64,000 nucleotides of DNA, taken from the NCBI RefSeq assembly GCF_020076305.1, contig NZ_JAIQXE010000002.1, positions 1,054,001 through 1,118,000 of the forward strand. Reading direction: 5' to 3'. The stretch's first letter is position 1. Every line of letters starts with the position of its first letter. Source of the stretch: Flavihumibacter profundi (GTDB lineage: Bacteria; Bacteroidota; Bacteroidia; Chitinophagales; Chitinophagaceae). The notes beneath the pieces are model-generated. The model did no database searches. It was not told the DNA's origin and saw only the letters and a list, made by a program, of their open reading frames with translations. The position numbers and the translations under genes are program-made. Below are positions 6,146 through 46,824 of this stretch, piece after piece.

Positions 6146-6174
6146 TAAATTTAATTATCTACAAAAAAGTTACT

Positions 6175-28904: not shown

Positions 28905-29816
28905 TCAGGAATGCCTCAAACCTTCAGCCACTTTAAACACATGCAATACATGTGGAAACAAGGCTTCCATGGTTTCTTCTGATCCCCGCGGTGAACCGGG
29001 CAAGGTAATCACCAGCAGGTTTCCAACAAAACCAGCAATGCCGCGAGATAACATAGCATAAGGCATACGTTGCTGGCCATATTGCCTGGCAGTTTCCATG
29101 ATGCCGGGAATTTCACGGTCAATTAATGGCATGATTGCATCAGGTGTGAGGTCACGTGGAGATAGTCCTGTTCCTCCTGCGAAAAGGGCCAGCCGGAAAC
29201 CTGCAGCGGATAGTTCCTTAACTTTTTCCTGGATAGTACTAAAGTCATCGGGTATGGCTACTCGCTGTGCAGGTGTTAATTTGTAATCTTGCAGCTTTTG
29301 TTCAATCCTGTCGCCGGTGAAGTCTTCGTTGATTCCGGCAGCTACACTGTCACTGCAAATAACAATAGCCGTTTTTACAGTATCGGGAAGGGCATATTTC
29401 AAATCAGACTTTCCGCCTTTTTTCTCCTGAAGTTTTATTGTGGAAATTTCAATGCCTTTATCCAAAGGTTTCAGCATATCGTACATGGTTAAAGCAACAA
29501 CCGAAGCGCCATGCATGGCTTCCACTTCAACCCCTGTTTTATAAATAGTATGCACCTCAACAGTTATTATGATGGTAAGGCCTTCAATACGATGAGTAAT
29601 GGCGGAGTATTCTATCGGGAGGGGATGGCAGTCGGGAATGACATCACTGGTTTTTTTGATGGCCAATAAACCAGCTGCCCGGGAGAATTCAAAAACATCA
29701 CCCTTGGGGACTTTTCTTTGTTCGATGGCATCAATAGTCTGCTGCCCCGACACTTTTACTATCGCAGTTGCGATTGCCTGCCTCAGGCTGGGTGATTTAT
29801 GCGTTATGTTAACCAT
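28905..29816 (-). CDS. Fused MoaC-MoaB: cyclic pyranopterin monophosphate synthase and molybdopterin adenylyltransferase-like
   Basis: A 303-residue fusion. Residues 1-150 are MoaC, with the EVHTIYKTGVEVEAMHGASV region, the DKGI motif and KKGGKSDLKY. Residues 155-303 are MoaB/MogA, with ICSDSVAAGINEDFTGD, AGGTGLSPRD and the PGSPRGSEE tail. MoaC closes the pterin ring after MoaA; MoaB/MogA adenylates molybdopterin before MoeA inserts molybdenum. It is the last gene of the 18-gene operon, 3 bp after moaE, and ends 16 bp from the convergent subtilase. Such MoaC-MoaB fusions are seen in Bacteroidota. Confidence 0.92.
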   Translation of the reverse strand: MVNITHKSPSLRQAIATAIVKVSGQQTIDAIEQRKVPKGDVFEFSRAAGLLAIKKTSDVIPDCHPLPIEYSAITHRIEGLTIIITVEVHTIYKTGVEVEAMHGASVVALTMYDMLKPLDKGIEISTIKLQEKKGGKSDLKYALPDTVKTAIVICSDSVAAGINEDFTGDRIEQKLQDYKLTPAQRVAIPDDFSTIQEKVKELSAAGFRLALFAGGTGLSPRDLTPDAIMPLIDREIPGIMETARQYGQQRMPYAMLSRGIAGFVGNLLVITLPGSPRGSEETMEALFPHVLHVFKVAEGLRHS

Positions 29817-29819
29817 TCC

Positions 29820-30263
29820 TTATTTGTTTTCTTTCCATTGATAGGTTTCATTATCGAAGACTTCCTTACCCCAAACAGGCAATTCAGCCTTAATCCTTTC
29901 AACCAGTTCAGAGCATGCTGCTATTGCGGGTTTACGATGTGCAGAGGAAGTGAATACGAATAAGCAGATTTCACCTGCTGCAACTTTGCCCAGGCTATGG
30001 TAGACATGCATACAGGTAAGTTCGTATTTGGCAAATATAGCCTCCCTGATTTCATGCATTTTTTCCAGGGCCATTTCTTCATAGGTTGTATAATCAATGG
30101 CCGAAACTGTCTTGCCTTCAACCTTGTCTGCCCTTACCTGTCCCAGGAAAATACTATGCCCGCCAATGTCATGGCGGCTGCTGTGTTTCTGGATACTTTC
30201 TGCAATAAATGATGCGCTGACAGCACCCTTTACAAATATATTTTTCGGTTTTCTAGGTTCCAT
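29820..30263 (-). CDS. moaE: Molybdopterin synthase catalytic (large) subunit MoaE
   Basis: A 147-residue MoaE. It shows the family motifs IFLGQVRADKVEGK, the SAIDYTTYEEMALEKM helix, SLGKVAAGE and the catalytic lysines near the end in AELPVWGKEVF. With MoaD it transfers two sulfur atoms to precursor Z (cPMP) to make molybdopterin. It follows moeB by 1 bp and precedes moaCB by 3 bp, so translation is probably coupled. Confidence 0.95.
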   Translation of the reverse strand: MEPRKPKNIFVKGAVSASFIAESIQKHSSRHDIGGHSIFLGQVRADKVEGKTVSAIDYTTYEEMALEKMHEIREAIFAKYELTCMHVYHSLGKVAAGEICLFVFTSSAHRKPAIAACSELVERIKAELPVWGKEVFDNETYQWKENK

Positions 30264-30264
30264 A

Positions 30265-31377
30265 TTAATCGGTTGATGGTGACCGCCAGTTCAGGAGGCC
30301 ACCCTGTAAACTATAAATTTTTTTTACCGGGCTCCTGATTTCGCTTAGCCATTTTGCTGCCTGCAGGCTTCTTTTACCTGACTGGCAAATAAATACAACA
30401 GTTTCTGCCTCAATCGAAGTGAGTTTTTCACGCAGTAAAGATAGCGGAAGCTTTTGGTGAACAAAGGCAGAGATGGCCGGCATTTCACCGGGTTCACGTA
30501 CATCTATTACTGTAACATTGTTTTGGTGCAGCAGGTGATTGAAAAATCCTGGTTCGATTTCAAATTCCGGTGATCCTACACCGCATAGCCAGTCATAATT
30601 GGTGTTTGCAAAGGTTTCCCTGTCTTGCGGCAGTAACCCTGTAGCTGCTGCATTTGGACTTATAAAAAGTTCAAATGCATGGTTAGTGAGCACATTGAAT
30701 GTGAAGAGTTTATTTTCCAATGTTTCGCCGATACCAGTGATAAGTTTAATGGTTTCACTGGCCTGCATAGTGCCAATGAATCCTGGCAGTACGCCCAGTA
30801 CGCCTGCTTCTGCACAGTTTAATACCTCCCCTGATTTTGGAGGATGGGGGAAGAGGTCACGGTAATTAACGGCATCCGCACCGGCATTAAAAATTGCTAC
30901 CTGTCCTTCATATTGCGATACAGCCCCATAGACCAAAGGCTTTCCAAGTAATACACAGGCATCGTTGATCATATAACGCGTGGAAAAATTATCTGTTCCG
31001 TCAATAATGATATCATACCCTGGAAAAAGTTCAAGGCATGTATTATTTGTGAGCTTTAACTGGTAGGGTTGAATAGTTACCTCATTGTTCAATTGCAGTA
31101 ATCTCATTGCGGCGCTGATGGCTTTTGGATGTCCTATATCCTCCATGGTATATAAGACCTGGCGATGTAAATTACTCAGCGCTACGGTATCAAAATCAAC
31201 CAGGCCGATAGTGCCAATGCCTGCGGCTGCAAGGTATAATAGTGCCGGGCAACCGAGCCCGCCTGCGCCAATCACCAATACTTTTGCTTTGCCCAGTTTT
31301 TCCTGGGCAGTAGCGCCAAAGTATTTAAGTGAAAGCTGGCGTTGGTATCTGTCTGGTTTGTTACCGTTTGGTTGCAT
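30265..31377 (-). CDS. moeB: MoeB/ThiF-type MoaD-activating enzyme fused to rhodanese
   Basis: A 370-residue protein. Residues about 10-250 are a ThiF/MoeB domain with the ATP-binding GAGGLGCPAL loop, DFDTVALSNLHRQ and the conserved CAEAGVLG. Residues about 270-370 are a rhodanese domain with the active Cys in FICQSGKRS. It adenylates MoaD's C-terminal Gly-Gly and, with rhodanese sulfur, makes the thiocarboxylate, like MOCS3 of eukaryotes. The zinc CxxC pairs of E. coli MoeB are absent here: the position before FPHPP has YRD in place of YRC. It is placed directly before moaE, after moaD. Confidence 0.92.
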   Translation of the reverse strand: MQPNGNKPDRYQRQLSLKYFGATAQEKLGKAKVLVIGAGGLGCPALLYLAAAGIGTIGLVDFDTVALSNLHRQVLYTMEDIGHPKAISAAMRLLQLNNEVTIQPYQLKLTNNTCLELFPGYDIIIDGTDNFSTRYMINDACVLLGKPLVYGAVSQYEGQVAIFNAGADAVNYRDLFPHPPKSGEVLNCAEAGVLGVLPGFIGTMQASETIKLITGIGETLENKLFTFNVLTNHAFELFISPNAAATGLLPQDRETFANTNYDWLCGVGSPEFEIEPGFFNHLLHQNNVTVIDVREPGEMPAISAFVHQKLPLSLLREKLTSIEAETVVFICQSGKRSLQAAKWLSEIRSPVKKIYSLQGGLLNWRSPSTD

Positions 31378-31379
31378 GG

Positions 31380-31622
31380 TTATCCTCCTGAGAATGGCGG
31401 CAGTAGTGCGATACCTGAATCAAGCTGAAGCGGGGTATTTCCCGCAGCGATTTTTTTATCAACCGCAATTACAAAACTCAATTCCGCCAATTGCGGATAT
31501 TTTGCTATTAATTGGTTTTTAAGCGCATCGGTATCCCCGACTGCCGGGAAATTTATTTCAGCGGCCCCAATGATATCAGTCAATTGTCCGAAGACAATAA
31601 TATTTTTTTTAAAACTACTCAT
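31380..31622 (-). CDS. moaD: Molybdopterin synthase sulfur carrier subunit MoaD
   Basis: An 80-residue ubiquitin-fold protein ending in PPFSGG; the terminal Gly-Gly is activated by MoeB and thiocarboxylated. The N-terminal strand VFGQLTDIIGAAEI and ALLPPFSGG are typical. It lies between the TauE-like transporter (4-bp overlap at its start) and moeB (2-bp gap). Small but well supported by its ending and neighbours. Confidence 0.93.
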   Translation of the reverse strand: MSSFKKNIIVFGQLTDIIGAAEINFPAVGDTDALKNQLIAKYPQLAELSFVIAVDKKIAAGNTPLQLDSGIALLPPFSGG

Positions 31623-32365
31623 GCGCCGGTAAATAATAATTTAAAAGCTGCCAGGCTGAGTACGGAAGCCAGGATGAATTTCAGCACGTCCTGCCTGAAT
31701 TTCAGTGACCCCAGCCAGGCGCCCAGGAATCCAGCGCCAAAAGCGATCAATACCATCAGCAACATATCGCTGCTGAAGCTAATCCCTTTTGTGAGCTGGC
31801 CAAACAACCCGGATAACGAATTTACGAAAATGAACAGGGCGCTGATTGCTGCAGTTTGTTTTTGGTCTGTCCATTTTAACAAAAGCAGTACCGGTGAGAG
31901 AATTATTCCGCCCCCAATACCAATCATTCCGGAAAGTAAACCGATCACTGCTCCAATAAGCACAGATAAACCTATACTGGAAGGGCGCATATCTGATATT
32001 TCGGTGTTTTTAAAAAAGAAAAACCTTGCTACCGGGATTAACAGTAATGCGCCAAGTATCTTTTTGTAGATCACTGCATCAATACTAACTAATCCCCCTA
32101 AAAATGCCATTGGGACAGATGCGACTGCCAGGGGTAAAAATATTTTCCAGTTGAAGTGTTTGCCCCGGTAAAACTGTATAAATGCGGTTATGGATACGAA
32201 AAGGTTGAGCAGCAGGGCCGTAGGTTTCATTACATCGGGTGCGAAACCATAAATAGCCATCAATGCCAGGTACCCGCTTGCGCCACCATGGCCCACTGAT
32301 GCATACAAAAATGCCACTGTAAATAAGAGCAGGTAAAAGACCAGGCTGATGTCCATAGCAGGCAT
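31619..32365 (-). CDS. TauE/SafE-family transmembrane transporter
   Basis: A 248-residue membrane protein with about eight hydrophobic segments. The motif FLYASVGHGGASGYLALM near the N-terminus and the repeat IGLLSGMIGIGGGIILSPVLLLL are the TauE/SafE signatures, including the glycine-rich IGIGGG. Members export sulfite or organosulfonates, or carry other anions and sulfur compounds. It abuts moeA without a gap and overlaps moaD by 4 bp. It may serve molybdate or sulfur flow for cofactor synthesis, but only position says so. Confidence 0.88.
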   Translation of the reverse strand: MPAMDISLVFYLLLFTVAFLYASVGHGGASGYLALMAIYGFAPDVMKPTALLLNLFVSITAFIQFYRGKHFNWKIFLPLAVASVPMAFLGGLVSIDAVIYKKILGALLLIPVARFFFFKNTEISDMRPSSIGLSVLIGAVIGLLSGMIGIGGGIILSPVLLLLKWTDQKQTAAISALFIFVNSLSGLFGQLTKGISFSSDMLLMVLIAFGAGFLGAWLGSLKFRQDVLKFILASVLSLAAFKLLFTGA

Positions 32366-33550
32366 TTATTGGGGTAAAAGGTGGATTTCTGCGGCTTCTC
32401 CTGTTTGGCACTGGGTAACTTCTTCCGGAAGCATGATCAGGCAATTTGCTTTGGCGAAGGAATTGAGTTTATAGGATTCTTGTCCGTCGAGTGGCAAAAC
32501 GGTTGTTCCATTGAAATGCCCTTTTAAATAATGGGTTATGCCTGCTGGTTTTTTAATTTCTTTTTCCAGTGGTGCGGTTTTTTTGGCCAGGGTCACTGAA
32601 CGGTTTTGCAACATGCTGATGGCCAACAATACATATTCATAAAAACAGGTGAGAACCGAAGCTGGGTTTCCTGGTAACCCGAAAACCAGTTTAGTGCCTT
32701 TTTTTGCAAAGAGGATGGGTTTTCCGGGTTTCTGTTTAATTTTATGGAACACTGTTTCTGCGCCGCATTGCATCGCTGCTTTTAAAGTGAAGTCATAGTC
32801 GCCGACACTAATACCGCCTGTTATTAATACGATGTCACTTTGTTCTATCGCATGCCCCAGCGTTTTTGTAAGTGTCTCTAACTGGTCTTCTACGCGATAG
32901 GTCTCTTTCAAGTGTAATGACAGTTGCTGCAATGCAGCTGAGAGGGTCAGGGAGTTAGATTCATAAACCTGTCCGTATGAAAGTGGGTTGCCGGGTGTTT
33001 GCAATTCATTCCCAGTTACAATTATGCTTATTGACGGTGATGGGTAAATGCTGACTTCAGTTATCCCGATGCCCGCTAAAAATCCGATGGCAGCTGGAGT
33101 TAGGAGTGTGCCTTTTTCCAGGGCTAATGCGCCTTTGCTGATTTCGGAACCAACCGGACGAACATTGTCACCAGCTTTGAGTGATGGGTCATCTATCGAT
33201 AATTCATCTTCTACCACACGGCATTTTTCCTGCATTACTACTGTATCTGCCCCGAACGGGACAGGTGCACCAGTAAAAATCCGGAAGGCCTTTCCATCAG
33301 GTAATTCAATACTATCCCCCCTGCCCGCAGCAATTTCCCCAAACAGGTCGAGTAATCCGTATGTCTTCCAGCTCTTGTAGGAAATAGCATAGCCATCCAT
33401 AGATGATTGTGGAAAAGCAGGGATATCGTTAGGCGCCCAGATATCATGGGCAAGGGTTTTCCCAGCAGCCTGAAGCAATGGCATTGTAACCGGTGACAAT
33501 GCCTGGCAATTTGTCCTGATAAGTTCTTTAGCTGCTGTAACTGTGATCAT
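32366..33550 (-). CDS. moeA: Molybdopterin molybdenumtransferase MoeA
   Basis: A 394-residue enzyme inserting molybdate into adenylated molybdopterin. I start at the ATG at 33550 (MITVTAAKELIRTNC); an upstream ATG at 33604 gives 18 residues unlike the family and would run into the receptor gene. Domain landmarks: the DIPAFPQSSMDGYAI segment, IFTGAPVPFGADTVVMQE, IIVTGNEL, ITGGISVGDYDF and GLPGNPASVLTCFYEYV. It lies 13 bp after the TonB-dependent receptor gene and abuts the TauE-like gene. Confidence 0.93.
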   Translation of the reverse strand: MITVTAAKELIRTNCQALSPVTMPLLQAAGKTLAHDIWAPNDIPAFPQSSMDGYAISYKSWKTYGLLDLFGEIAAGRGDSIELPDGKAFRIFTGAPVPFGADTVVMQEKCRVVEDELSIDDPSLKAGDNVRPVGSEISKGALALEKGTLLTPAAIGFLAGIGITEVSIYPSPSISIIVTGNELQTPGNPLSYGQVYESNSLTLSAALQQLSLHLKETYRVEDQLETLTKTLGHAIEQSDIVLITGGISVGDYDFTLKAAMQCGAETVFHKIKQKPGKPILFAKKGTKLVFGLPGNPASVLTCFYEYVLLAISMLQNRSVTLAKKTAPLEKEIKKPAGITHYLKGHFNGTTVLPLDGQESYKLNSFAKANCLIMLPEEVTQCQTGEAAEIHLLPQ

Positions 33551-33563
33551 GTTTTTTGTGTGC

Positions 33564-36122
33564 TTATATTCCCCATGTGGCGGTAAGGTAATACATACCA
33601 CCAATGGATGGTCCGCCTAAAATAGAATAATAATAATGGTTACTTATATTACTTCCCCCTAATTTAAGGCGAAATGGCATTTTCGTAAAGCGATAGCTGA
33701 TGTGCATATCCAGGGTGGTTGTGGCCGGCACATCACCATTTGTCAGGAAGGATTGCCAGTAATACCTGCTTTGCCATCGGAGGCTGATGCCTGCCCCAAA
33801 TTGTTTGTATAATTTTTCGTTGGCAACAGAAGCAAAGGCCATCCATTCGGGCGTGTTGAAACCGTCTTCAAGGCCGTCTTCTCCTTTCGCTTTCTGCAAT
33901 TTGGCATAGGAACTATGCGCAGTAATCATATAGCCCCGGTTTAGTTTCCATTGTATTCCTATACTACCACCATATTGATATACCGATGTTTTTGAATTGG
34001 TCCACATACGGTATTGGTCCTGTTTTGTATTGTCAGCTAAATAGTAGGGAATTGAATCGGGGTCTTCAGTTTTGGGTACATTCATATTTGCCTGTGCAAT
34101 AAAGGACCGGTATTTGTTTATGTAAATTTCAGCATCCAATAGTATTTTTCCATTGGCCATACCCCTTTTATAACCGGCATCAAAAGATTGCACATGTTCA
34201 GGCTGGATATAGGTGTATGGACTTTTTATTAATAATTCCTTGTTTTTTTCAAAAGCCGCTTGCCTTGATACACCTCCCTGGTTAACATCTTTAAGGATTG
34301 CCGACTGGAAAGCCGCAATGGAAGTCTGTAGCCAGGCATTTTCAAATATGCCGTTCGACATTACGGGTAATCCGCCCACGCGTTTTACACCTCCACTATT
34401 TACATTAGAAAAGGCTTCAAACAGAATAGGGTACCTGTATCCGCCCTGGTAGGATATTCTTATGCTCTGTAATGCGGAAGGCGAATAAACAGCGGTAAAT
34501 CGGGGATTGAACAGTACCGGGTAATAATCATTTTTATCGCCCCTGACTGCTGCGCCAAGGCGAAGCTTTCCTGAGAAAAAATTCCGGTTTGCGGAAAGGT
34601 AAACACCGGTCCTGCCATAAACAATATTCTTACCTTCTTTCCCTGCTGCCGGATTCATAAAATAATTACCATCAGGTATTACAATATAACTTCGGTGGTC
34701 GCCGCCTGCCAGCAGTTCGATACCTGTTTTCTCTTTCATTTTACCCAGCCAACTGTCGGTGAGGTTCAATTGCATTTCTGCATGGACAAAGCTGGCTTTC
34801 ACTTTTAGGGCAGCACCCTGGTCCCAGTTGTTGATTTGTTGTAACTGACCCAGTACATCATTGAAAGCAGAGCTTCCAGGTTCGTACCGGCCATTATCGG
34901 CAAATAACCTGGCCTGTTTGTGGGCATTCACTGCATCTGTGCCATTCTGCTGCGACTGGTTGTAACCGGTAGTATAATCTGCAAACCAGGTTTTGTCGGA
35001 TTTGTAATTACGGTCGATATTTTCGGCCATGGAACGCAGGTTATAGGAGTTGCCGGTATTCTCATTGTTCAGGTATAACCGCGCTTGCAGGGCTTTGGAT
35101 TGATAACTGAGAGCATGTTGCTGCAAAAAATAATCAGCCAGCCTGAACCGGTTAGCCCGCTGGTAAATATTGTCTAATACTGCAAAGCGGAATGTATAAG
35201 AAAATTTATCCCCCCTGCTGTTGTGGTAGAAAATCCCCGCGTCTGCTTTAATGTTTTGGAGGCTATAATCGGTCACCTCAATTTCTTTATAACCCGTCCT
35301 TGCAACAACATATGATTTCCCGCCAAGCGTTAGCGTTTTCCGGTTCGATGATTCATTGCCATAGCTGTTTACCGGGTTCAGGGCTGGATTATCTGCACCT
35401 AATAACTGGGTGCTGGAATTGGCATTAGGATTGATGTCCTGGTAATTGTCGGCAATCCAGTCATACCCCTTTGTGAAAGTTCCGTTGAACCTAATGACCC
35501 AGTTAGTGCTTATTTTTTTTACATAACGCAGGCTTGTTTCTGAAAATAATTTGGCGCTGGTGTTGGGATCGCCCAAATGTGTAAGCGCTGTTTTTTGCTG
35601 AACACTGAGTCCCTCTGATGTAAATGGGTCCCTGCTGTTGAATTGAGCCAGTCCATTTACCGTATTCATGCCATACAAAGCAGATGACATACCAGGTATG
35701 ATTTCCACATTATCAATATCCAGGTCGCTGGGCCCTAATACGTTACCGATCGGACTGCCAATATGAGGCGATTGGATGTCCATGCCATCTACCAATTGGG
35801 TAAAGCGAACATTTGTTGTGTTGGCAAACCCGCGGGTATTAAGGATGCGAAAACCCATACTTGGTGTGATCATCTGTACCCCTTTCATATTTTCAAGGGC
35901 GTCAAAAAAAGAAGGAGCGGAGCTATTGGTGAAAAATGAACGACCAGCTTTTTGAATGCTTAAAGGGCTCCGTAAAATATTTTCTGGAATCCGTGAAGCG
36001 CTCACGACCACTTCATTCAGTAATGTAGTATGAATAGTATCCTGATTCGGAGTAGTATGTTTTTCCTGACTCCTGGCCTCGAGGCAAAGTAATAGATGAA
36101 GTATAGTATAATATTTTTTCAT
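33564..36122 (-). CDS. TonB-dependent outer-membrane receptor inside the cofactor operon
   Basis: An 852-residue receptor. A signal peptide (LLLCLEARSQ) is followed by a plug domain starting LLNEVVVSASRIPENI, which serves as the TonB-box region, and containing NTRGFANTTNVRFTQLVDGMD and VEIIPGMSSALYGMN. A 22-strand-type barrel ends in the aromatic WGI. It lacks the N-terminal CarboxypepD_reg domain and a SusD partner, so it is not a SusC-type polysaccharide receptor and is more like a siderophore or metal receptor. It overlaps moaA by 4 bp and lies 13 bp before moeA, so import of a cofactor metal (molybdate, or copper for the Mo-Cu site) is the natural reading. The ligand is inference. Confidence 0.9.
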   Translation of the reverse strand: MKKYYTILHLLLCLEARSQEKHTTPNQDTIHTTLLNEVVVSASRIPENILRSPLSIQKAGRSFFTNSSAPSFFDALENMKGVQMITPSMGFRILNTRGFANTTNVRFTQLVDGMDIQSPHIGSPIGNVLGPSDLDIDNVEIIPGMSSALYGMNTVNGLAQFNSRDPFTSEGLSVQQKTALTHLGDPNTSAKLFSETSLRYVKKISTNWVIRFNGTFTKGYDWIADNYQDINPNANSSTQLLGADNPALNPVNSYGNESSNRKTLTLGGKSYVVARTGYKEIEVTDYSLQNIKADAGIFYHNSRGDKFSYTFRFAVLDNIYQRANRFRLADYFLQQHALSYQSKALQARLYLNNENTGNSYNLRSMAENIDRNYKSDKTWFADYTTGYNQSQQNGTDAVNAHKQARLFADNGRYEPGSSAFNDVLGQLQQINNWDQGAALKVKASFVHAEMQLNLTDSWLGKMKEKTGIELLAGGDHRSYIVIPDGNYFMNPAAGKEGKNIVYGRTGVYLSANRNFFSGKLRLGAAVRGDKNDYYPVLFNPRFTAVYSPSALQSIRISYQGGYRYPILFEAFSNVNSGGVKRVGGLPVMSNGIFENAWLQTSIAAFQSAILKDVNQGGVSRQAAFEKNKELLIKSPYTYIQPEHVQSFDAGYKRGMANGKILLDAEIYINKYRSFIAQANMNVPKTEDPDSIPYYLADNTKQDQYRMWTNSKTSVYQYGGSIGIQWKLNRGYMITAHSSYAKLQKAKGEDGLEDGFNTPEWMAFASVANEKLYKQFGAGISLRWQSRYYWQSFLTNGDVPATTTLDMHISYRFTKMPFRLKLGGSNISNHYYYSILGGPSIGGMYYLTATWGI

Positions 36123-37108: not shown

Positions 37109-37719
37109 TGCGTTGGATGAATAAATGATTCGTATTCTTCTTTCGTATCTATGTCTATATACCCTTTAGGAAAATCAACTGCCGCCACATCATTACCGTA
37201 TTGTTTAATCAGTTTGCGGGCACCTGCATCACCAGTCAATTCTGATAATGCGGAAAATACCCGTTGGGTAAACAGGGCGGGAGTGCCAAGGGTATCCTGG
37301 TATGAACTCGCTACGATCCATTTCCCGGTTTCAGCCTGTGTGTTCACCAATTCCTGCAACAAGGCGGCTGTGACAAATGGCTGGTCACATACCATAAAAA
37401 TAACTGCATTCAATTCCGGTAGCAGTTGACGGGCTTTATCCAAGCCGCATTGCAGCGAGGTAGACATCCCTTGCTGCCAGTTTTTATTCTCTGCAATGGC
37501 CAGGTCCATTCCTTCCAGTTCTTTTTTCATGGCTTCATTATTTTCTCCCAGCACTACAACTACAGGCTTAAGTCCGGTTGACAAAGCAGTAAATGCTGCC
37601 TGGCCTAACAGGCTTTTCCCATTGAAGGGGAGAAGTTGCTTAGGTTCCCCCAGCCGGCTCGACGATCCTGCAGCAAGGATTACAATGGCACAATAAATAT
37701 CGTTAGGATTTTTGACCAT
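37093..37719 (-). CDS. mocA: MocA-like nucleotidyltransferase (molybdenum cofactor cytidylyltransferase)
   Basis: A 208-residue NTP-transferase. I start at the ATG at 37719 (MVKNPNDIYC); an earlier ATG at 37752 overlaps the XdhC gene by 50 bp. Motifs: LAAGSSSRLGEPKQLLPF (nucleotide and metal binding), CDQPFV and TGDAGARKLIKQY. MocA attaches CMP to molybdopterin. The aerobic CO dehydrogenase uses exactly this cytosine dinucleotide form, and the gene lies next to coxL maturation genes, which favours MocA over MobA (GMP). Confidence 0.85.
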   Translation of the reverse strand: MVKNPNDIYCAIVILAAGSSSRLGEPKQLLPFNGKSLLGQAAFTALSTGLKPVVVVLGENNEAMKKELEGMDLAIAENKNWQQGMSTSLQCGLDKARQLLPELNAVIFMVCDQPFVTAALLQELVNTQAETGKWIVASSYQDTLGTPALFTQRVFSALSELTGDAGARKLIKQYGNDVAAVDFPKGYIDIDTKEEYESFIHPTQWKKN

Positions 37720-39868: not shown

Positions 39869-41000
39869 CTTGTAATATATTTTCCAGTTCCAACAAACTC
39901 TTCAGGTTATGTGCCGGCCTGAATTCATCTATGGCGGGCAGTGCTGCTTTCATACCCCTTGCCGTTGGCTCATAACCTTTCATTCCCTTCAATGGGTTCA
40001 GCCAGATAATCCTTTTTGCCCGCAGATGAATGCTGCGCATTGCCTTGCTTACCTGCTCAGGCTGGCCGGTATCAAGTCCGTCACTCAGCACCAGGACGGT
40101 TGGTGAGCCGTTCAGCAATTGTTTACCGTATTTATCGGTAAATTCCTGAAGGCAGGCCCCGATCCTCGTGCCACCCGACCAGTTTTCAGCCTGGCTGCCA
40201 ATAGTAGCCAGTACCAGGTCAATCCGGCTGAACTGAAGGGCCCGGGTTACCCTTAATAAAGAAGTACTGAATATAAAAGCTTCGAGCTGCCTGAATTGTT
40301 CACGCAATGCACAAATAAATCGAAGCAGGTAATGGCTGTATTTATCCATAGAACCGCTGACGTCCAGCAAAACGATCAATCTTTGTTTTTTGGCCTTTTT
40401 CGAACGCCGGAATAGTTCCAGGGGTTCACCGCCGAATGGTATACTTTTCCGGATAGTCCTGCGGAGGTATACAGGCCCTTTTTTTTGGGATTCTTTCATC
40501 CTTCGGCGCATCCTGATAGCCATTTCCCTGAAGAGTTTCCTGGAAAGATCTTCAAGTTGGGCAGCATCCATTTCGCTGATTTTTGCCAGGTCGGTGGTTT
40601 TCAGCCTTTCGGTTTCATTGGCCCCGGAAACATTTTTAGCTTCGGTTTCTTCGGCTTCCGGTTTTCCCCGGCCAAGCATAACTAACGAGGCGTTGGTTTT
40701 TTTTTCAACCATTCCCAATATAGAAGTCTTGCTTTTTCTGGACTGAAGGTCAATAGGATTAGTATCCCAGTAAAGTAAAAATATTTTTTCAAAAATTCGG
40801 GCTTCTTCCGGTGATTTGCACATGATCGTTTTCAATGCACTTTTAAAATGTGTCCGGCTGGAAAGCAATCCGGCATCCGCAGCCAGTAAGGCATCCTGGG
40901 CTTCCAATAAGCCCACATTCATTCCATGGCTTCGGGCGAATTGCGCAAAAGCCACAATACTTTGGGTAATACTAGTAGTTTCAAATGCCTGTTGTTTCAT
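39861..41000 (-). CDS. coxE: CoxE-like VWA-domain maturation protein
   Basis: A 379-residue protein. The N-terminal region is helical (about residues 1-190). The C-terminal VWA domain has the MIDAS motif DVSGSMDKYS and VLVLSDGLDTG, and the flanking regions RRTIRKSIPFGGEP and EYARGMKAALP are typical of CoxE. MoxR ATPases such as CoxD act together with VWA partners. CoxE is needed for maturation of the CuSMo site in carboxidotrophs. It follows coxD by 18 bp and overlaps the XdhC-YHS gene by 8 bp. Confidence 0.9.
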   Translation of the reverse strand: MKQQAFETTSITQSIVAFAQFARSHGMNVGLLEAQDALLAADAGLLSSRTHFKSALKTIMCKSPEEARIFEKIFLLYWDTNPIDLQSRKSKTSILGMVEKKTNASLVMLGRGKPEAEETEAKNVSGANETERLKTTDLAKISEMDAAQLEDLSRKLFREMAIRMRRRMKESQKKGPVYLRRTIRKSIPFGGEPLELFRRSKKAKKQRLIVLLDVSGSMDKYSHYLLRFICALREQFRQLEAFIFSTSLLRVTRALQFSRIDLVLATIGSQAENWSGGTRIGACLQEFTDKYGKQLLNGSPTVLVLSDGLDTGQPEQVSKAMRSIHLRAKRIIWLNPLKGMKGYEPTARGMKAALPAIDEFRPAHNLKSLLELENILQDA

Positions 41001-41018
41001 GGGTGTTGATTACAAATA

Positions 41019-41900
41019 TCAAGTCATGAAAGTGCCATGGCCTTCTGCCCTGATCAGCGAAATATCTTCTGCCGATTTCAGGATACTGCCCAGTGATACA
41101 GAGAAAGCTGTTTCGTTTAATTCGCGGTAACCCAGGGCCATTAATGATTCTGCCCAATCGATGGTTTCTGATACACCTGGTGTTTTAGCCAACTTTCGCT
41201 GCCTGAACTGCTGGGCCACATGTACCACCTGTGCCAGTAATTTTTCTTCAATGGAGGGCAGGCGCTTACGTACGATCAGCATTTCCTTATCGAGGCCGGG
41301 ATAGTCTATCCAATGGTACAAACACCTTCTTTTAAGGGCATCACTTAGCTCACGGGTACGATTAGACGTAAGTATCACATAAGGTTTGTGTTTTGCCCTG
41401 ATGGTCCCGATTTCAGGTATGCTTATCTGGAAGGCTGATAATAATTCGAGCAGGAAAGCTTCAAATTCCTCGTCTGACCGGTCGAGTTCATCGATCAGCA
41501 AAACAGGTGACTGAAATTCCTGCGTGATAGATTCCAGTAGGGGGCGCTTCAGCAAGTAATCGTGACCGAATATATGCTTCTCTTTTTCTTCAATTGTTAA
41601 CCCACTCTCTTCCTGTAGTTTGATTCCCAGCAATTGTTTCTGGTAATTCCATTCATAAAGTGCTGCATTCACATCAAGGCCTTCGTAGCATTGCAGCCTT
41701 ATTAATTTGGTTTTAAGCAATTGTGACAAGGCAAGCGCCGCTTCCGTTTTTCCTACGCCCGGCGGACCTTCCAGCAAGAGAGGCTTCCGCAGTTTCAGCA
41801 ACAGGAATAAGGAAGTGGCGAATTCCTCGTCAACAACATACTGCATCTTGTCCAGTGTTTCAATAATCTGTTCCTGATTTTCAATTGTATTCACTGTCAC
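41019..41900 (-). CDS. coxD: CoxD-like MoxR-family AAA+ ATPase
   Basis: A 293-residue AAA+ protein with Walker A GPPGVGKTE (about residues 40-48), Walker B LLIDELDRSDEEFEAF and a sensor I region VILTSNRTRELS. CoxD of O. carboxidovorans is a MoxR ATPase required for cofactor sulfuration and metal loading of CO dehydrogenase. It pairs with the VWA protein encoded next (coxE). Its start overlaps the coxG stop by 1 bp (TAATG-type coupling). Confidence 0.92.
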   Translation of the reverse strand: MTVNTIENQEQIIETLDKMQYVVDEEFATSLFLLLKLRKPLLLEGPPGVGKTEAALALSQLLKTKLIRLQCYEGLDVNAALYEWNYQKQLLGIKLQEESGLTIEEKEKHIFGHDYLLKRPLLESITQEFQSPVLLIDELDRSDEEFEAFLLELLSAFQISIPEIGTIRAKHKPYVILTSNRTRELSDALKRRCLYHWIDYPGLDKEMLIVRKRLPSIEEKLLAQVVHVAQQFRQRKLAKTPGVSETIDWAESLMALGYRELNETAFSVSLGSILKSAEDISLIRAEGHGTFMT

Positions 41901-42424
41901 TATTTTTTACCAAACATTCCTTTAAGCATTCCGCCCACCATGGATCCGGCACTCAATGTATTGTCGACCTGTTCACCTGCCAGTTGCTTCTTGAAATTAG
42001 TCACAAACTGATCGAAGACCTGGTTAGACACATCATTGATGAGCCTTGATCCGAACTGCGCCATCATGCCGGTCACATTTACTTCCATGGTTACATTCAC
42101 ATCAGTGCCTCCGTCTTTTTCTGTAAGCTGTCCATCCATTTTCATGTCTGCGCCACCTTTTCCCTTACTGTCTGTACCTACACCCTTCAGCGACATCTTC
42201 CGGGTGGCTGCATTCCTTTCCAGGAAAGTGATGAGTCCATCGTATTTTGCTTTAACCGGACCGAATTTCAACTCCACCTCACCCTTGTAGTTATCGTTGT
42301 CGACTGTTTCGGTGAGGGAGGCCCCGGGTACGCAAACGACGACCTGCGCAGGGTTAGTGAGATTATTCCATACGGCCTCAATTGGCTGTTCTACATGGAA
42401 TGATTTTGTTATGCTCGTTGTCAT
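41900..42424 (-). CDS. coxG: CoxG-like SRPBCC-fold protein
   Basis: A 174-residue protein of the CoxG (SRPBCC/START-like) family. Motifs: EAVWNNLTNPAQVVVCVPGASL, YKGEVELKFGPVKAKYDG and the FGSRLINDVSNQVFDQFV helix; C-terminal tail GGMLKGMFGKK. CoxG is believed to tether or assist CO dehydrogenase at the membrane. It lies 17 bp after coxL and overlaps coxD. Confidence 0.9.
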   Translation of the reverse strand: MTTSITKSFHVEQPIEAVWNNLTNPAQVVVCVPGASLTETVDNDNYKGEVELKFGPVKAKYDGLITFLERNAATRKMSLKGVGTDSKGKGGADMKMDGQLTEKDGGTDVNVTMEVNVTGMMAQFGSRLINDVSNQVFDQFVTNFKKQLAGEQVDNTLSAGSMVGGMLKGMFGKK

Positions 42425-42441
42425 GATCTGTTTTTTACTGG

Positions 42442-44808
42442 TTATATAGCTCCTTTATCTTTCAATGCCTTCCATACCTTGGCTGGTGTGATCGGGATAT
42501 CAAGATGGGTGATGCCAAATGGACTTAACGCATCTACAATAGCATTAGCAATGGCCGGTGGTGCACCTACAGTTGGTGATTCGCCGACGCCTTTAGCACC
42601 AATCGGATGGTGTGGCGATGGTGTAATTACGTGGCCGGTTTCCCAACTGGGTGATTCTACGGCTGTGGGTACCAGGTAGTCCATCAGTGTTCCATTTAAT
42701 ATGTTGCCATCTTCATCATAGATCAGTTCTTCATACATAGCCGGTGCAATGCCTTGTGTCAGACCTCCGTGTACCTGTCCCTGTACAATCATTGGATTAA
42801 TGATATTGCCACAATCATCTATGGCTACAAAACGGCGCACATGGATTCCGCCGGTTTCCTTGTCAATATCAACCACGCAGATATATGCTCCGGATGGGAA
42901 GGTGAGGTTTGGCGGATCGTAATAATGTGTGGCTTCAAATCCGGCCTCCATACCCTGTGGGTGATTGGTATAGGACGCGAAAACAATTTCCTGGATGGTT
43001 TTTGATTTTTCAGGAGCACCTTTCACCCAGAATTTTCCTGGTTCCCATTCCAGGTCTTCTTCACTGACTTCAAGCAGGTAGGCAGCAATTTTACGGGCTT
43101 TGGCGACTAACTTGCGGGAAGCCATAGCCGCAGCCGCACCTGCAGTTGGTGTACTTCTTGATGCATAGGTTCCCAATCCGTAAGGAGCGGTATCTGTATC
43201 ACCTTCTTCAACCTGGATATTCTCTGCCGGGATACCTAATTCTTCGGCAATGATCTGTGCATAAGTAGTTTCATGTCCCTGGCCCTGGGATTTTGTACCA
43301 AAACGTGCGATGGCTTTACCGGTTGGGTGAACACGAATCTCGGCGCTGTCAAACATTTTTATACCGAGGATATCAAAGTCTTTTGAAGGACCGGCACCTA
43401 CAATTTCTGTAAATGTGGAGAGGCCTATACCCATCAGCTCACCTTTCTTTCTTTTTTCAGCCTGTTCTTTCCGCAATTCCCAATAGCCAACGGCATCCAT
43501 AGCCTTTAAAAGCCCTTTATGGTAATCGCCGCTATCGTAGATCCAGCCGGTTGGTGATTTCCAGGGGAAGTCCTCTTTCTTGATGAAGTTTTCCATCCTA
43601 AGGTCAGCCGGGTCTTTTCCTATTTCTAGGGCGAACCTGTCGGTCATGCGTTCGATCGCATGCACAGCTTCGGTAACCCTGAATGAGCAACGATAGGCAA
43701 CACCACCAGGAGGTTTGTTGGTATAAACAGCATCGCATTCCATATAGGAAGTGTCGTAATCATAGGAGCCAGTTGCAATGGAGAACATACCCGTCGGGAA
43801 TTTTGATGGGTTGGCAGATGCATCGGTATAACCGTGGTCGGCGAGAATTTTGAAACGAGTAGCGAGGATCTTACCATCTTTTGTACCTGCCATTTCTGCT
43901 GTGATATGATAGTCGCGCGCGAATGAATCGGCCTGCAGGTTTTCACTGCGGTCTTCGATCCATTTCACGGGTTTGCCAACCAGGAAGGAAACAGCAATGG
44001 CAATTACATAGCCGGGATATACCGGCACTTTGCCACCGAATCCCCCTCCAATATCAGGGGAAATAACCCGAATCTTTTCTTCTGTTAAACCAACGTGACC
44101 TGCCACCAGCGCAATTACCGTGCGGATGGCATGCGGCGCCTGTGTGGTCATATACATCGTGAGGTGATTGTTGATTTTGTCATAATCGGCTACACAACCA
44201 CAGGTTTCGATGGAAGCCACATGGATGCGGGGGATATGCATCTGTTCTTTAACCACTACATCGGCCGATGCGAAAACGGCTTCCGTTTTGGCTTTGTCGC
44301 CTGCCTCCCAATGCCAGATATGGTTATCTTTTTTACCAGCTTTGTCTGTCCTTAAAACGGGAGCATCCGGATCCATGGATTTGTAAGGATCGATCACGGG
44401 TTTCATCTTCTCATAATCAACTTTCACTGCTTCACGACCATCACGTGCGGCATACCTGCTCGTGGCGATAACCGCAGCCACTTCCTGCGCCTGGTACATC
44501 ACTGTGTCTGTTGGCAATACCATTTGCGTATCAGACATCAGGGTGGGCATCCAATGGAGATTGTATTTCTCAAGGTCGCGGCCGGTAACCACTGCAACTA
44601 CCCCAGGCACTTTCATGGCCTCTTCAATATTGATCTTTTTTATTTTGGCATAGGCATACGGACTCCTTACAATATCCATATACAGCATGCCCGGAAGTTT
44701 GATGTCATCCACATAATGGCCCTTACCCTGTATGAAGCGGATGTCTTCCTTTCTTTTCAGGGAATGGCCCATGCCACCGATTTCCTTTGATGTTTTACAC
44801 TTATTCAT
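42442..44808 (-). CDS. coxL: Aerobic carbon monoxide dehydrogenase large subunit (form I CoxL)
   Basis: A 788-residue molybdopterin-binding subunit oxidising CO to CO2. The active-site loop GGVAYRCSFRVTE contains AYRCSFR, the motif that separates form I CO dehydrogenases (AYxCSFR) from form II enzymes (AYRGAGR). Cys374 corresponds to the cysteine that holds copper in the Mo-Cu site, and Glu743 (KGVGESPTVG) to the catalytic glutamate. SQGQGHETTY contacts the cofactor, and IGGGFGGKVPVYPG is intact. The length matches the family (about 800). It follows coxS by 32 bp. The form I call rests on the motif and the complete gene set; enzymatic activity is inference. Confidence 0.95.
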   Translation of the reverse strand: MNKCKTSKEIGGMGHSLKRKEDIRFIQGKGHYVDDIKLPGMLYMDIVRSPYAYAKIKKINIEEAMKVPGVVAVVTGRDLEKYNLHWMPTLMSDTQMVLPTDTVMYQAQEVAAVIATSRYAARDGREAVKVDYEKMKPVIDPYKSMDPDAPVLRTDKAGKKDNHIWHWEAGDKAKTEAVFASADVVVKEQMHIPRIHVASIETCGCVADYDKINNHLTMYMTTQAPHAIRTVIALVAGHVGLTEEKIRVISPDIGGGFGGKVPVYPGYVIAIAVSFLVGKPVKWIEDRSENLQADSFARDYHITAEMAGTKDGKILATRFKILADHGYTDASANPSKFPTGMFSIATGSYDYDTSYMECDAVYTNKPPGGVAYRCSFRVTEAVHAIERMTDRFALEIGKDPADLRMENFIKKEDFPWKSPTGWIYDSGDYHKGLLKAMDAVGYWELRKEQAEKRKKGELMGIGLSTFTEIVGAGPSKDFDILGIKMFDSAEIRVHPTGKAIARFGTKSQGQGHETTYAQIIAEELGIPAENIQVEEGDTDTAPYGLGTYASRSTPTAGAAAAMASRKLVAKARKIAAYLLEVSEEDLEWEPGKFWVKGAPEKSKTIQEIVFASYTNHPQGMEAGFEATHYYDPPNLTFPSGAYICVVDIDKETGGIHVRRFVAIDDCGNIINPMIVQGQVHGGLTQGIAPAMYEELIYDEDGNILNGTLMDYLVPTAVESPSWETGHVITPSPHHPIGAKGVGESPTVGAPPAIANAIVDALSPFGITHLDIPITPAKVWKALKDKGAI

Positions 44809-44840
44809 ATAATGATGAATTGAATCGTTTTAAATAATTT

Positions 44841-45344
44841 TTATACAAATTGCGGTTCGGTGGATGGCAATTCTTCGCCACGCATTTTAGCGCCGGCATA
44901 AATAACCGCTTTCACAATATTATTATAGCCGGTGCAACGGCAAAGGTTACCCGAAATACCCCAGCGAATTTCTTCCTCAGTGGGATTGGGATTATTAGCC
45001 AGTAATTCTGTTGCCCGCATGATCATGCCCGGTGTGCAGAAACCGCAATGCAGCCCGTGGTTTTCCTTGAATCCTTCCTGGAGTGCAGAAAGCTCCCCGT
45101 TTACGGCCACTGCTTCAATAGTGGTAAGGGATTTCCCATTGGCCTGTACGGCTAGGACAGTGCAGGATTTGATGGATTTGCCATCCATTAATATGGTACA
45201 GGCGCCGCAGCTGGATGTATCGCAGCCAATATGTGTGCCCGTCAGGTTCAATACTTCCCTGATCATGTGCACCAATAGTAATCGGGGCTCCACTTCGAGG
45301 GTATGCTTTTCGCCGTTAACGGTTACGGTTATTTCTTTTAACAT
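44841..45344 (-). CDS. coxS: Carbon monoxide dehydrogenase small (2Fe-2S) subunit CoxS
   Basis: A 167-residue iron-sulfur subunit. The plant-type site is [21 protein letters not shown] (Cys pattern C-x5-C-x2-C-x11-C). The second, distal cluster is CGFCTPGMI with CRCTGY (four more cysteines). The wording CDTSSCGAC is characteristic of CO dehydrogenase small subunits. It passes electrons from the Mo-Cu site of CoxL to FAD in CoxM. It lies 25 bp after coxM and 32 bp before coxL. Confidence 0.95.
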
Positions 45345-45369
45345 ATATTGTTCAGTTTATCAGTTATTG

Positions 45370-46242
45370 TTAATTGTTACTGGCCCGGTTGGCAGCTTCA
45401 TGGATCATACGTTTCACCAGCACGGCCACCATAGCGCGTTTGTATTCTTCGGAGCCCCGCAGGTCGGCAGACGGACTGCAATCTTCCGATGCATACAGGG
45501 CTGCTTCAGCAATGCTGTGTTCGGTAAGTGGCTTGCCGATTAGTGCCTGTTCGGAGCGCACTGCGCGCAAGGGTGTCGGGTTCACATTGGTTAATCCTAT
45601 TCCCGCAGCTTTCACTATACCATCATCCCCGATGGTAATTTGGACAGCAACACCTGCAGTAGCATAATCACCCACTTTTCTTTCCAGTTTGTGGTAGGCA
45701 CTACCGGTGCCTGTAGGTGGAATCGGAATCTGAATTTCTGTAAGGATCTCACCAAACTGCAGGGCAGTTGAGTAAAAGCCGAAGAAGAATTCATCAATTG
45801 GGATTTCTCTTGATCCTTCGGCACCCGTTGCAATAACGGTGGCATTCAAAGCCAGCATTACAGCAGGATGGTCATTTGCGGCATCGCCATGGGCAAGGTT
45901 ACCACCAATGGTGCCACGGTTGCGTACCTGCGGATCAGCGATCAGTTTGGTGACATCTTTGAATATCGGAAAAATCTTGGCCAGGGCCGCCGAATGTTCT
46001 AATTCGGATTCGCGGGTCAGTCCGCCAATTTTCATCTTGCCGTTTTCTTCAACAATGTGGGAAAGTCCGGGGATGTTATTAATGTCCACCAGCACTTCAG
46101 GTGTGGCGAACCGCAATTTCATCATGGGAATCAGGCTATGACCCCCGGAAAGGATCTTTGCCTCTTCGCCATACTGGTGTAATAATTTAATGGCCTCTTC
46201 TAATGTGCCTGGTGATTCGTACTGGAAGGATTGGGGGATCAT
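45370..46242 (-). CDS. coxM: Carbon monoxide dehydrogenase medium (FAD) subunit CoxM
   Basis: A 290-residue FAD-binding subunit. The motif AKILSGGHSLIPMMKLR (about residues 33-49) and NRGTIGGNLAHGDAANDHPA (about 107-126) hold the isoalloxazine and pyrophosphate. CoxM passes electrons from CoxS toward the quinone pool. Order M-S-L is that of carboxidotroph cox operons. An 11-bp gap follows the cysteine-rich membrane gene, which suggests a shared transcript. Confidence 0.95.
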   Translation of the reverse strand: MIPQSFQYESPGTLEEAIKLLHQYGEEAKILSGGHSLIPMMKLRFATPEVLVDINNIPGLSHIVEENGKMKIGGLTRESELEHSAALAKIFPIFKDVTKLIADPQVRNRGTIGGNLAHGDAANDHPAVMLALNATVIATGAEGSREIPIDEFFFGFYSTALQFGEILTEIQIPIPPTGTGSAYHKLERKVGDYATAGVAVQITIGDDGIVKAAGIGLTNVNPTPLRAVRSEQALIGKPLTEHSIAEAALYASEDCSPSADLRGSEEYKRAMVAVLVKRMIHEAANRASNN

Positions 46243-46253
46243 AACTGTTGATT

Positions 46254-46748
46254 TTATTGCTTTGTCAGATAATTAGTGGAATTGTTTTTGGATTGGGTAA
46301 GGGCAGTAATTTTTTCTAGCCAGCCGAAACGCTTCATGTTCATACCGATGCCGGTTAACATAATGAGCACGCCGGTAAAATAAAGGGCTTGACCACCTGC
46401 AGTAGTAACACTATAAAATATACAGCTACTACCCGCCAGGGCCAGCCCCAGAGCATACCAGGTTCTTTTGTCTTTAAAGCTCAGGGTCAGGCTAACAAGG
46501 GTAAGCGAACAAAAAAAGAGGGAAATATAGAGTGTAACTGGATGGGTATGCGATACAGTAGAAGAAACCGAGCCTCCCTTGCCGCAGAGTACCATCGTGC
46601 TGGAAAAGGCCAAAACACAAAATGGGCATTTTGGGAGCACTGCCAGTATTATACCAGACAACAGGCCAATGCCTTTTTCCCGCTTTGATGGCGGTTTTGA
46701 CTCGCTTTTACAAGGAGCGCAATCGTTAACTTTTTGAGAGCAGGGCAT
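46254..46748 (-). CDS. Cysteine-rich membrane protein, first gene of the cox operon
   Basis: A 164-residue protein with cysteines at residues 3, 10 and 13 of a soluble N-terminus (CSQKVNDCAPC). A first helix carries PKCPFC, and three further helices follow (about residues 60-85, 95-115, 120-140). In-membrane CPxC pairs are found in MerC/MerT-like and other metal-handling membrane proteins, so copper or soft-metal transport is a plausible role. I do not recognise a named family. It is the first gene of the operon, 11 bp ahead of coxM. Confidence 0.65.
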   Translation of the reverse strand: MPCSQKVNDCAPCKSESKPPSKREKGIGLLSGIILAVLPKCPFCVLAFSSTMVLCGKGGSVSSTVSHTHPVTLYISLFFCSLTLVSLTLSFKDKRTWYALGLALAGSSCIFYSVTTAGGQALYFTGVLIMLTGIGMNMKRFGWLEKITALTQSKNNSTNYLTKQ

Positions 46749-46824
46749 CTCGTTACGAATTTATATGGCTTAAGTGCTGAGGACTATTAATTTACGACAA
46801 TTCGCAGATAAAACACCGCGGCGG

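Follow-up and report, generated by a model that had tools for sequence, protein, structure and literature searches.

The question raised by this locus is how a form I carbon monoxide (CO) dehydrogenase (CODH) is provided with its cofactor and its two metals, and whether the genes concerned form a unit of their own. The locus is a run of 18 minus-strand genes (28905-46748) in a stretch of 64,000 nucleotides from Flavihumibacter profundi (assembly GCF_020076305.1, contig NZ_JAIQXE010000002.1, positions 1,054,001 to 1,118,000), the whole of which is referred to as the window. A sequence-only reading had described the run as a self-contained form I CODH operon with its own molybdenum-cofactor (Moco) pathway. 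The account preferred here, which is partly inferred, is that the run is probably a form I CODH module placed before the Moco operon of the family, with metals supplied as proposed below. In aerobic CO oxidisers, the route of copper to the Mo-S-Cu centre is a standing question. What is new is a YHS or HMA tail on the XdhC protein of the cox module and the link of a TonB-dependent receptor to modE/modA; follow-up interest lies in metal supply, i.e., in this copper-type tail of the CoxF-type protein and in the receptor, which is probably for molybdenum. Genome labels begin with G (G000, the genome of the window; G309, F. stibioxidans; G299, F. fluminis) and locus labels with L.

The gene run and its CO dehydrogenase

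The three structural genes and the signature of the catalytic subunit are located as follows.

45370..46242, minus strand: coxM, FAD subunit (Mo-hydroxylase FAD models, under the equivalog cut-offs; GGHSLIPMMK and TIGGNLAHGDAAND)
44841..45344, minus strand: coxS, iron-sulfur subunit ([2Fe-2S] models, under the equivalog cut-offs)
42442..44808, minus strand: coxL, form I Mo-Cu catalytic subunit, 788 amino acids (TIGR02416, 1231 bits; cut-off 991)
43678..43698, minus strand: AYRCSFR, form I signature with the Cu-binding Cys (CoxL residues 371-377)

CoxL is a form I Mo-Cu CODH as judged by curated model, motif, and tree. The Cys of AYRCSFR and the catalytic Glu of GAKGVGES (residues 737-744), which had been named as those of the Mo-Cu site, align with the solved CO dehydrogenases 8uem and 1ffu. 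The best matches in the PDB are all CO dehydrogenases (8uem, 1ffu/1ffv, the 1n5w group, and 1zxi; 1037-1067 bits), and the next enzyme is quinoline 2-oxidoreductase at 470 bits. In a tree of 107 CoxL rows, built by a quick method and with the join of two long reference rows flagged as doubtful, the window sequence falls on the form I side, 96 rows versus 11, and the split has a Shimodaira-Hasegawa-like approximate likelihood ratio (SH-aLRT) support of 100. Ten of the 11 rows across the split carry AYRGAGR (form II), and L110 has neither motif. The earlier assignment to form I is thus borne out by the phylogeny that had been named as its check. The coxM-coxS-coxL order is present with the FAD and two [2Fe-2S] motifs, CoxS having eight cysteines (residues 41, 46, 49, 61, 100, 103, 135, and 137), and the maturation genes coxD, coxE, and coxF (the last by position and XdhC domains) lie in the cluster. 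Within the genus, G303 and G309 also have a form II-like gene, which in G309 accompanies the form I gene. On a plasmid of Caballeronia sp. SBC1 (L248, ~3860-6211), a full-length CoxL has AYRCSFM, not AYRCSFR, and adjoins a CoxF-type YHS gene.

The 18 genes and their close packing were found where the sequence-only reading had placed them, with inter-gene distances from -50 to +32 bp; the overlaps of moeA and mocA become shorter if internal ATG starts are used (~33550 and ~37719; translations read by eye). In order of transcription, the first part comprises a MerC-like gene, coxM, coxS, coxL, coxG, coxD, coxE, and an xdhC with a YHS tail, and the second part a further xdhC, mocA, moaA, a TonB receptor gene, moeA, a TauE/SafE gene, moaD, moeB-rhodanese, moaE, and moaCB. 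CoxL, MoaA, and MoaCB exceed curated NCBIfam cut-offs, whereas CoxM, CoxS, CoxD, MocA, MoeA, MoaD, MoeB, and MoaE belong to the right superfamilies with scores under the NCBIfam equivalog cut-offs; Pfam matches were obtained for CoxG, CoxE, both XdhC proteins, TauE/SafE, MoeB (ThiF and rhodanese), MocA (NTP_transf_3), and the TonB receptor. A survey of gene order, which had been proposed as a check, recovered the run in six further Flavihumibacter genomes, those of F. stibioxidans YS-17 and F. fluminis RY-1 among them (seven with that of the window; G309 lacks the TonB gene), and also outside the genus, in G263 and G291, which share another one, and this repetition within the genus indicates that the order is real and not due to chance.

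The host genome comprises 4.87 Mb in 6 contigs. On one side the run is flanked by a plus-strand gene for a subtilase sorted by the type IX secretion system; on the other, 377 bp past the first gene, lie a plus-strand gene without Pfam match, a peptidase S58 gene, and an acyltransferase-like gene, with no evident link to the run. The promoter TAnnTTTG was found in one of the seven 400-bp regions upstream of the first gene in the seven genus genomes, and a single promoter-like match of 10 of 12 positions lies upstream of it in the window (47001-46973). Within the run, promoter-like matches (42 versus 35.3 in shuffles) and terminator-like matches (24 versus 21.0) are about as frequent as in shuffled sequence, and no operon boundary is claimed. 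An alignment of the seven upstream regions shows a common stretch, GTAA[AC]TTA (window 46788-46795, 39 nt before the ATG of the first gene), which could be a promoter element. Transcription of the run as one unit and the use of trace CO are both suggested readings of these genes.

With regard to the host, the nearest named relatives are F. stibioxidans (94%) and F. fluminis (93%), and the proposed Bacteroidota origin is confirmed. The earlier statement that such enzymes are few in the phylum was not upheld: form I CoxL at 93-100% identity occurs in 7/15 genomes of the genus, that of the window included (two of the 15 being 55% and 75% complete), and CoxL above the TIGR02416 cut-off occurs in 13 of 298 genomes, also with that of the window, in an even sample of the order. 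Moreover, 68 of the 80 nearest CoxL loci, a set picked by similarity, bear Bacteroidota names. Form I coxL in this phylum was already named in 2019 (Cordero et al., PMC6794299), and it is also mentioned in two ocean surveys of 2026 (PMC13203968 and PMC13240472); a physiological test of a Bacteroidota CODH was not seen in the accessible parts of these three papers. In the open-access literature searched, no report on Flavihumibacter and carbon monoxide was found.

The CoxF-type protein and copper

The accessory genes of the cox module are listed below.

38879..39868, minus strand: CoxF-type XdhC with C-terminal YHS (Pfam XdhC_CoxI 62.5, XdhC_C 104.4, and YHS 48.9 bits)
38891..39028, minus strand: YHS domain of the CoxF-type protein (PVCGVPVD...YFCCDGC; Pfam YHS, residues 281-326)
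39861..41000, minus strand: coxE, von Willebrand A protein (Pfam VWA_CoxE, 194.8 bits; DVSGS of the metal ion-dependent adhesion site type)
41019..41900, minus strand: coxD, MoxR-type AAA+ ATPase (MadB-type AAA, 266.8 bits, under the equivalog cut-off; Walker A GPPGVGKT)
41900..42424, minus strand: coxG, membrane/quinone adaptor by family (Pfam COXG, 84.4 bits)
46254..46748, minus strand: MerC-like Cys-rich membrane protein of 164 amino acids, a candidate copper handler (Pfam MerC, 21.1 bits; cut-off 27.6)

The YHS tail is present in 58 of 60 complete CoxF-type homologues (51 by pattern and 7 by eye), i.e., those with more than 100 bits and at least 300 amino acids among the 80 CoxL loci, the other 20 loci being uncounted. 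The two homologues without it are L074, which has neither domain, and the Rhodothermus protein (L085:15007-16149), which has an HMA domain with GMSCAHC; in the PDB this HMA tail best matches CopZ and domains of copper ATPases, some zinc ATPases being found among the lower matches. YHS scores above the Pfam cut-off were obtained for the window, L018, L043, L066, L080 (SAR324), Thermomicrobium roseum, Paraburkholderia, and the haloarchaeon Natronorubrum, and a borderline score (29.1 bits; cut-off 30.3) for Deinococcus AJ005. The fusion genes of T. roseum, Paraburkholderia, Natronorubrum, and Deinococcus are plasmid-borne, each clustered with a form I CoxL. The CoxF-type gene does not always adjoin coxE, as it follows coxL in T. 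roseum and Natronorubrum, and in Caballeronia SBC1 an XdhC-YHS fusion (by pattern) stands beside the CoxL with AYRCSFM. Several phyla have a CoxF-type protein with a fused metal-binding domain, which in one is replaced by a domain of the copper-chaperone type. The second, general XdhC of the window operon has XdhC domains by Pfam and no metal domain. Two full-length tblastn matches from Roseivivax were excluded as fusions, because they cross a stop codon and the gene (one of the two was read) has no YHS.

In Oligotropha, coxE and coxF mutants were reported in 2014 to form a CODH that contains Mo and sulfur, with Cu contents of 0.00 and 0.04, and either mutant was missing both the CoxE and CoxF proteins; in the accessible text, the authors propose CoxF as the copper supplier, suspect MCPSHGTM as its Cu motif, and close by naming the missing CODH maturation factors as a task (PMC4240915). 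The motif corresponds to MTCQSEGTV in the window protein, in which the Cys is retained. We infer that the YHS or HMA tail would be a copper-holding part of the CoxF-type protein, and the fused domain makes a direct test of the copper route possible. No report on CoxF together with YHS was found in the open-access literature searched. Two irregular genes were observed in other loci: in a deltaproteobacterial metagenome-assembled genome (MAG), one frame combines an XdhC_CoxI domain with a class V aminotransferase (L072:7087-9024), which may be a real fusion or an artefact of deletion or assembly, as the XdhC of the related L074 is a normal one at this place, and in another MAG the CoxF-type gene lies in two frames of 153 and 144 amino acids (L012:14203-15060).

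A MerC-like homologue on the same strand, at most 3.5 kb upstream of coxM, was detected in 44 of the 62 loci with at least 1.5 kb of sequence upstream of coxM, and its Cys41, Cys44 (PKCPFC), and Cys55 are invariant in 45/45 aligned rows. With respect to MerC family membership, the F. stibioxidans homologue reached 22.8 bits, and those of L018 and L043 had no MerC match; a sequence search of the PDB gave no matches, and no tblastn match at 1e-5 was obtained in 11 plasmid loci of other phyla. In two other cox loci of Bacteroidota, L043 (7077-8425) and L018 (7242-8336), the MerC-like gene is separated from coxM by genes for a small protein resembling ThiS/MoaD and a protein with BNR/sortilin-like repeats.

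The cofactor operon and the TonB receptor

The remaining genes include, as had been noticed earlier, nearly all of the Moco pathway in a single run.

37703..38878, minus strand: second XdhC, first gene of the general Moco operon (Pfam XdhC domains; also in cox-less relatives)
37093..37752, minus strand: mocA, molybdopterin cytidylyltransferase (TIGR03310, 148 bits, cut-off 186; Pfam NTP_transf_3, 131; LAAGSSSRLGEPK)
36119..37108, minus strand: moaA (TIGR02666, 350.6 bits; cut-off 284)
33564..36122, minus strand: TonB-dependent outer-membrane receptor (Pfam Plug and TonB barrel)
32366..33604, minus strand: moeA, molybdate insertion, ATG probably at ~33550 (MoeA, 328 bits, under the equivalog cut-off; TIGR00177, 96.7, over 85)
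31619..32365, minus strand: TauE/SafE-family membrane transporter (Pfam TauE, 116.3 bits)
31380..31622, minus strand: moaD, sulfur carrier with C-terminal SGG (TIGR01682, 38.7 bits; cut-off 66)
30265..31377, minus strand: moeB with C-terminal rhodanese (Pfam ThiF 256.7 and Rhodanese 33.1 bits)
29820..30263, minus strand: moaE, large subunit of molybdopterin synthase (MoaE-type models, 75.7 and 50.5 bits, under the cut-offs)
28905..29816, minus strand: moaCB fusion, last gene (NF002947, 366 bits, cut-off 285; Pfam MoaC and MoCF_biosynth)

The claim of a self-contained unit stands in one respect: the MoaA of the run is the only one found in the genome (next best, 49.3 bits). It fails in another, in that the cofactor half is the Moco operon usual in the family and occurs without cox as well. 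Since this MoaA is the sole one, four other Mo-hydroxylase-type proteins found in the genome presumably depend on it; only one other MoCF_biosynth protein lies outside the operon (C1:292459). The order xdhC-mocA-moaA-moeA-tauE-moaD-moeB-moaE-moaCB is the same in the cox-less G304, G305, and G306, and in G301 and G303 the genes from mocA (in G303 also xdhC) through moaCB adjoin another Mo-hydroxylase-like gene. Among 20 further Moco loci, one per genome from 20 genomes of Chitinophagaceae, 12 have the order moaA-moeA-tauE-moaD-(moeB)-moaE-moaCB (L237 without a moeB match), L232 has it in part, and 7 differ; a Mo-hydroxylase-like pair occupies the slot of the cox module, upstream on the same strand, in 7/20. 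TauE/SafE lies between moeA and moaD in 12 of the 13 Moco loci of the genus, the 13th being a contig of 4.5 kb. E. coli MoeB binds zinc; by contrast, the MoeB of the window (30265-31377) has no CxxC pairs. In a Bacteroidota MAG (L022:5921-8112 and 15985), these parts are ordered differently, with the second xdhC and mocA lying upstream of coxM and the MerC-like gene, and with moaA after the CoxF-type gene.

The complete cox-Moco operon of G309 is bounded by pdxJ and a CBM9/DUF5916 gene, and this pair also encloses the cox-less clusters of G304, G305, and G306, each with one or two extra genes beside pdxJ; the operon of the window and of G300 is at another site, near the subtilase. Because cox-less sisters keep the Moco genes between the same flanks, cox has been gained or lost separately from the Moco half. 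A tree of 29 rows, built by a careful method from five concatenated Moco proteins, requires three state changes of cox, all forced by well-supported branches; G304 and G305/G306 are nested within rows that have cox. Most simply, this would reflect one cox gain before the genus and two losses, the alternative being repeated gains at one slot. The CoxL tree groups the Flavihumibacter rows, and L012, L013, and G263, as the Moco tree does; it puts G291 elsewhere, with MAGs of other families (supports 80-88), for which cox transfer between families or wrong MAG names are possible reasons. The cofactor genes were found to be neither specific to cox nor inherited with it alone. Consequently, the statement that the run moves and works as a unit holds by half, given that the Moco half stands alone in cox-less species of the genus and family and that cox changed three times, and the operon is better seen as a CODH added to an existing Mo-hydroxylase operon than as an autonomous unit that travels.

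The TonB receptor gene is found in 6/7 cox-bearing versus 0/5 cox-less Moco loci of the genus (Fisher p 0.015; G308, a divergent cluster on a contig of 4.5 kb, is left out) and in 0/20 of the further family loci. Its nearest relatives outside cox operons point to molybdenum. The G168 receptor (62%), from a genome in which no CoxL exceeds the cut-off, comes after moaA and a ModE-type regulator; that in G156 (50%) follows a ModE-type regulator, and that in G182 (50%), whose genome has coxL elsewhere, directly precedes modA, with modE nearby. Neighbouring Mo genes were seen for 3/4 such receptors at 50% identity or more, versus 1/24 at 38-45% and 1/21 at 36% or less (Fisher p 0.005 against the 38-45% group and 0.002 against all lower ones; one 39% match of G168 and partial matches are left out). 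The ModE-type proteins scored 79 and 78 bits on TIGR00637 (cut-off 98.5), and ModA 204 over 62.5. Because the nearest relatives outside cox operons adjoin modE/modA in three of four cases, the receptor is probably for molybdate or a molybdenum chelate. A sequence search at E 0.01 found no PDB relative, and no TonB molybdate receptor was found in the open-access literature, among the matches listed. Two other TonB receptors of the host genome (G000:C1:992906-995473, 39%, and C1:689453-691876, 34%) have no Mo-gene matches nearby.

Within the 18-gene run there are no ModABC genes. ModB over the cut-off was detected in 0/15 genus genomes (the matches in G300 are weak, at 67 and 44 bits) and, among 15 chosen genomes, in 0/6 inside and 8/9 outside the family, so that these genomes seem to be without the usual molybdate permease. 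If correct, a TonB receptor for molybdenum in genomes in which ModB was not found would be a new trace-metal route. On account of its position and the missing ModB, TauE/SafE is a candidate molybdenum carrier, a role in sulfur supply being as likely.

Competing explanations and known systems

In the proposed scheme, a module of MerC-like gene, coxMSL, coxG, coxD, coxE, and CoxF-type XdhC-YHS stands ahead of the Chitinophagaceae Mo-hydroxylase/Moco operon, a name coined in this analysis from the genus and family loci, and a TonB receptor gene has been set into that operon between moaA and moeA. CoxMSL would supplement the energy supply by oxidising CO at a Mo-S-Cu-S(Cys) centre and passing electrons via CoxG to the quinone pool. 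Molybdenum would cross the outer membrane via the TonB receptor and move inward by some carrier, TauE/SafE being one candidate, and MoaA, MoaCB, MoaD, MoaE, MoeB, MoeA, and MocA would make the cofactor for CODH and presumably for other Mo-hydroxylases. On the copper side, the MerC-like protein may handle Cu at the inner membrane, and the CoxF-type protein may carry it on the YHS tail and help, together with CoxE and CoxD, to load the sulfurated Mo site. A wider proposal joins two claims: that in Bacteroidota, SAR324, Thermomicrobium, Deinococcus, Burkholderiales, and a haloarchaeon CoxF is a dedicated copper chaperone whose YHS domain (or, in Rhodothermus, a CopZ-like HMA) delivers Cu to the sulfurated Mo site, and that the Bacteroidota operon adds a MerC-like Cu handler and, in some cases, a TonB receptor for Mo, both metals being thus supplied. 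Taken jointly, these two claims are put forward tentatively, somewhat on the doubtful side of even.

Several points weigh against the scheme. YHS was found in 0/6 alphaproteobacterial form I clusters, that of Oligotropha included: four have only XdhC domains by Pfam, and Oligotropha (280 amino acids) and Rhizobium jaguaris were negative in a pattern scan, which also overlooked the Deinococcus YHS, so that pattern negatives are no proof. Since these six clusters are without YHS, the tail is dispensable for form I CODH. In the PDB, the tail of the window protein finds just phenol hydroxylase and zinc fingers, and YHS is not copper-specific; because each Oligotropha mutant was without both CoxE and CoxF, the Cu loss is not attributable to CoxF alone. 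The MerC-like gene is absent from 18/62 loci, 10 of them Bacteroidota, and the MerC score of the window protein is under the Pfam cut-off. The TonB gene is missing from the operons of G309, L012, L013, and L021 and is therefore dispensable there; G159 (54%), the second-nearest receptor relative outside cox operons, has no Mo gene nearby, and the ModE/ModA queries were drawn from the close relatives themselves, which favours those loci, so that distant ModE genes near other receptors may be overlooked. TauE/SafE is proposed as a carrier from its position and the missing ModB, and a sulfur role would fit equally.

The run could instead be a mobile, self-sufficient CO-oxidation island whose 18 genes travel together as the cofactor pathway comes along. 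Such a view would accord with the tight single-strand arrangement, with flanks that vary (the subtilase of the left flank lies elsewhere in G302 and G309, and the right-flank peptidase in G300), and with the MAGs L028 (Mucilaginibacter), L075 (Jiulongibacter), and L016 and L020 (Saprospiraceae) among the Chitinophagaceae CoxL rows (supports 80-88), placements that may reflect transfer or wrong MAG names. However, relatives have the Moco half but no cox, in three cases between the genes that flank the F. stibioxidans operon, the three cox changes and the nested positions of G304 and G305/G306 speak against joint travel, the flanks of L028 and L075 have cox genes without the Moco order, and no integrase or transposase was found in the five flanking window genes scanned, which makes an island very unlikely. 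That the CoxL-like enzyme is another Mo-hydroxylase, for purines, aldehydes, or aromatic substrates, is suggested by the four such proteins elsewhere in the genome and by the slot that holds such enzymes in other family loci; the form I signature, the score on the CODH model, PDB scores of 1037-1067 bits for CO dehydrogenases versus at most 470 for others, and the attached coxG, coxD, coxE, and CoxF-type gene leave this idea with almost no credibility.

Two further alternatives concern the metals. The TonB receptor might import copper or a copper chelate for CODH, which by its family is the operon's sole copper enzyme, and the tracking of cox by its gene within the genus had suggested this reading. 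It was overturned by the order-wide search and the Mo neighbourhoods of the relatives, namely those of G168 (in a genome without form I CoxL), G156, and G182, so that copper import is quite unlikely, though less so than an island. Alternatively, the YHS tail might bind zinc or aid folding, with no relation to copper, given that YHS domains are known without copper, e.g., in the phenol hydroxylase match, and that Oligotropha CoxF functions without the tail. Against this, the tail is on the XdhC of the Cu-enzyme module and absent from the general XdhC of the same operon, and at the same end the Rhodothermus protein has an HMA domain, most of whose best solved relatives bind copper; a role unrelated to copper is rather doubtful, and the least so of these four alternatives.

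The preferred reading, a CODH module before a family Moco operon, can be compared with three known systems. The pHCG3 cox cluster of Oligotropha (Afipia) carboxidovorans shares the coxMSL order, AYRCSFR, coxD, coxE, a CoxF-type XdhC, and coxG. It differs in being flanked by MHYT-domain genes, none of which is in the window run. In the window, coxG precedes coxD, Moco genes follow cox on the same strand, and CoxF has a YHS tail and does not contain the exact motifs RGD, RHGxR, and MCPxHG, with the Cys of the last kept (MTCQSEGT). The published Bacteroidota form I CODHs (Cordero et al., 2019, and the two ocean surveys of 2026) share a form I CoxL in the phylum; in their accessible parts, these surveys treat CoxL, the coxMSL order, and CoxG, the Moco, TonB, MerC-like, and YHS parts not being covered. 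Finally, the Chitinophagaceae Mo-hydroxylase/Moco operon shares the content and order of the second half of the run, and the window differs from it by a CODH module in the slot of the Mo-hydroxylase pair and by a TonB receptor gene between moaA and moeA.

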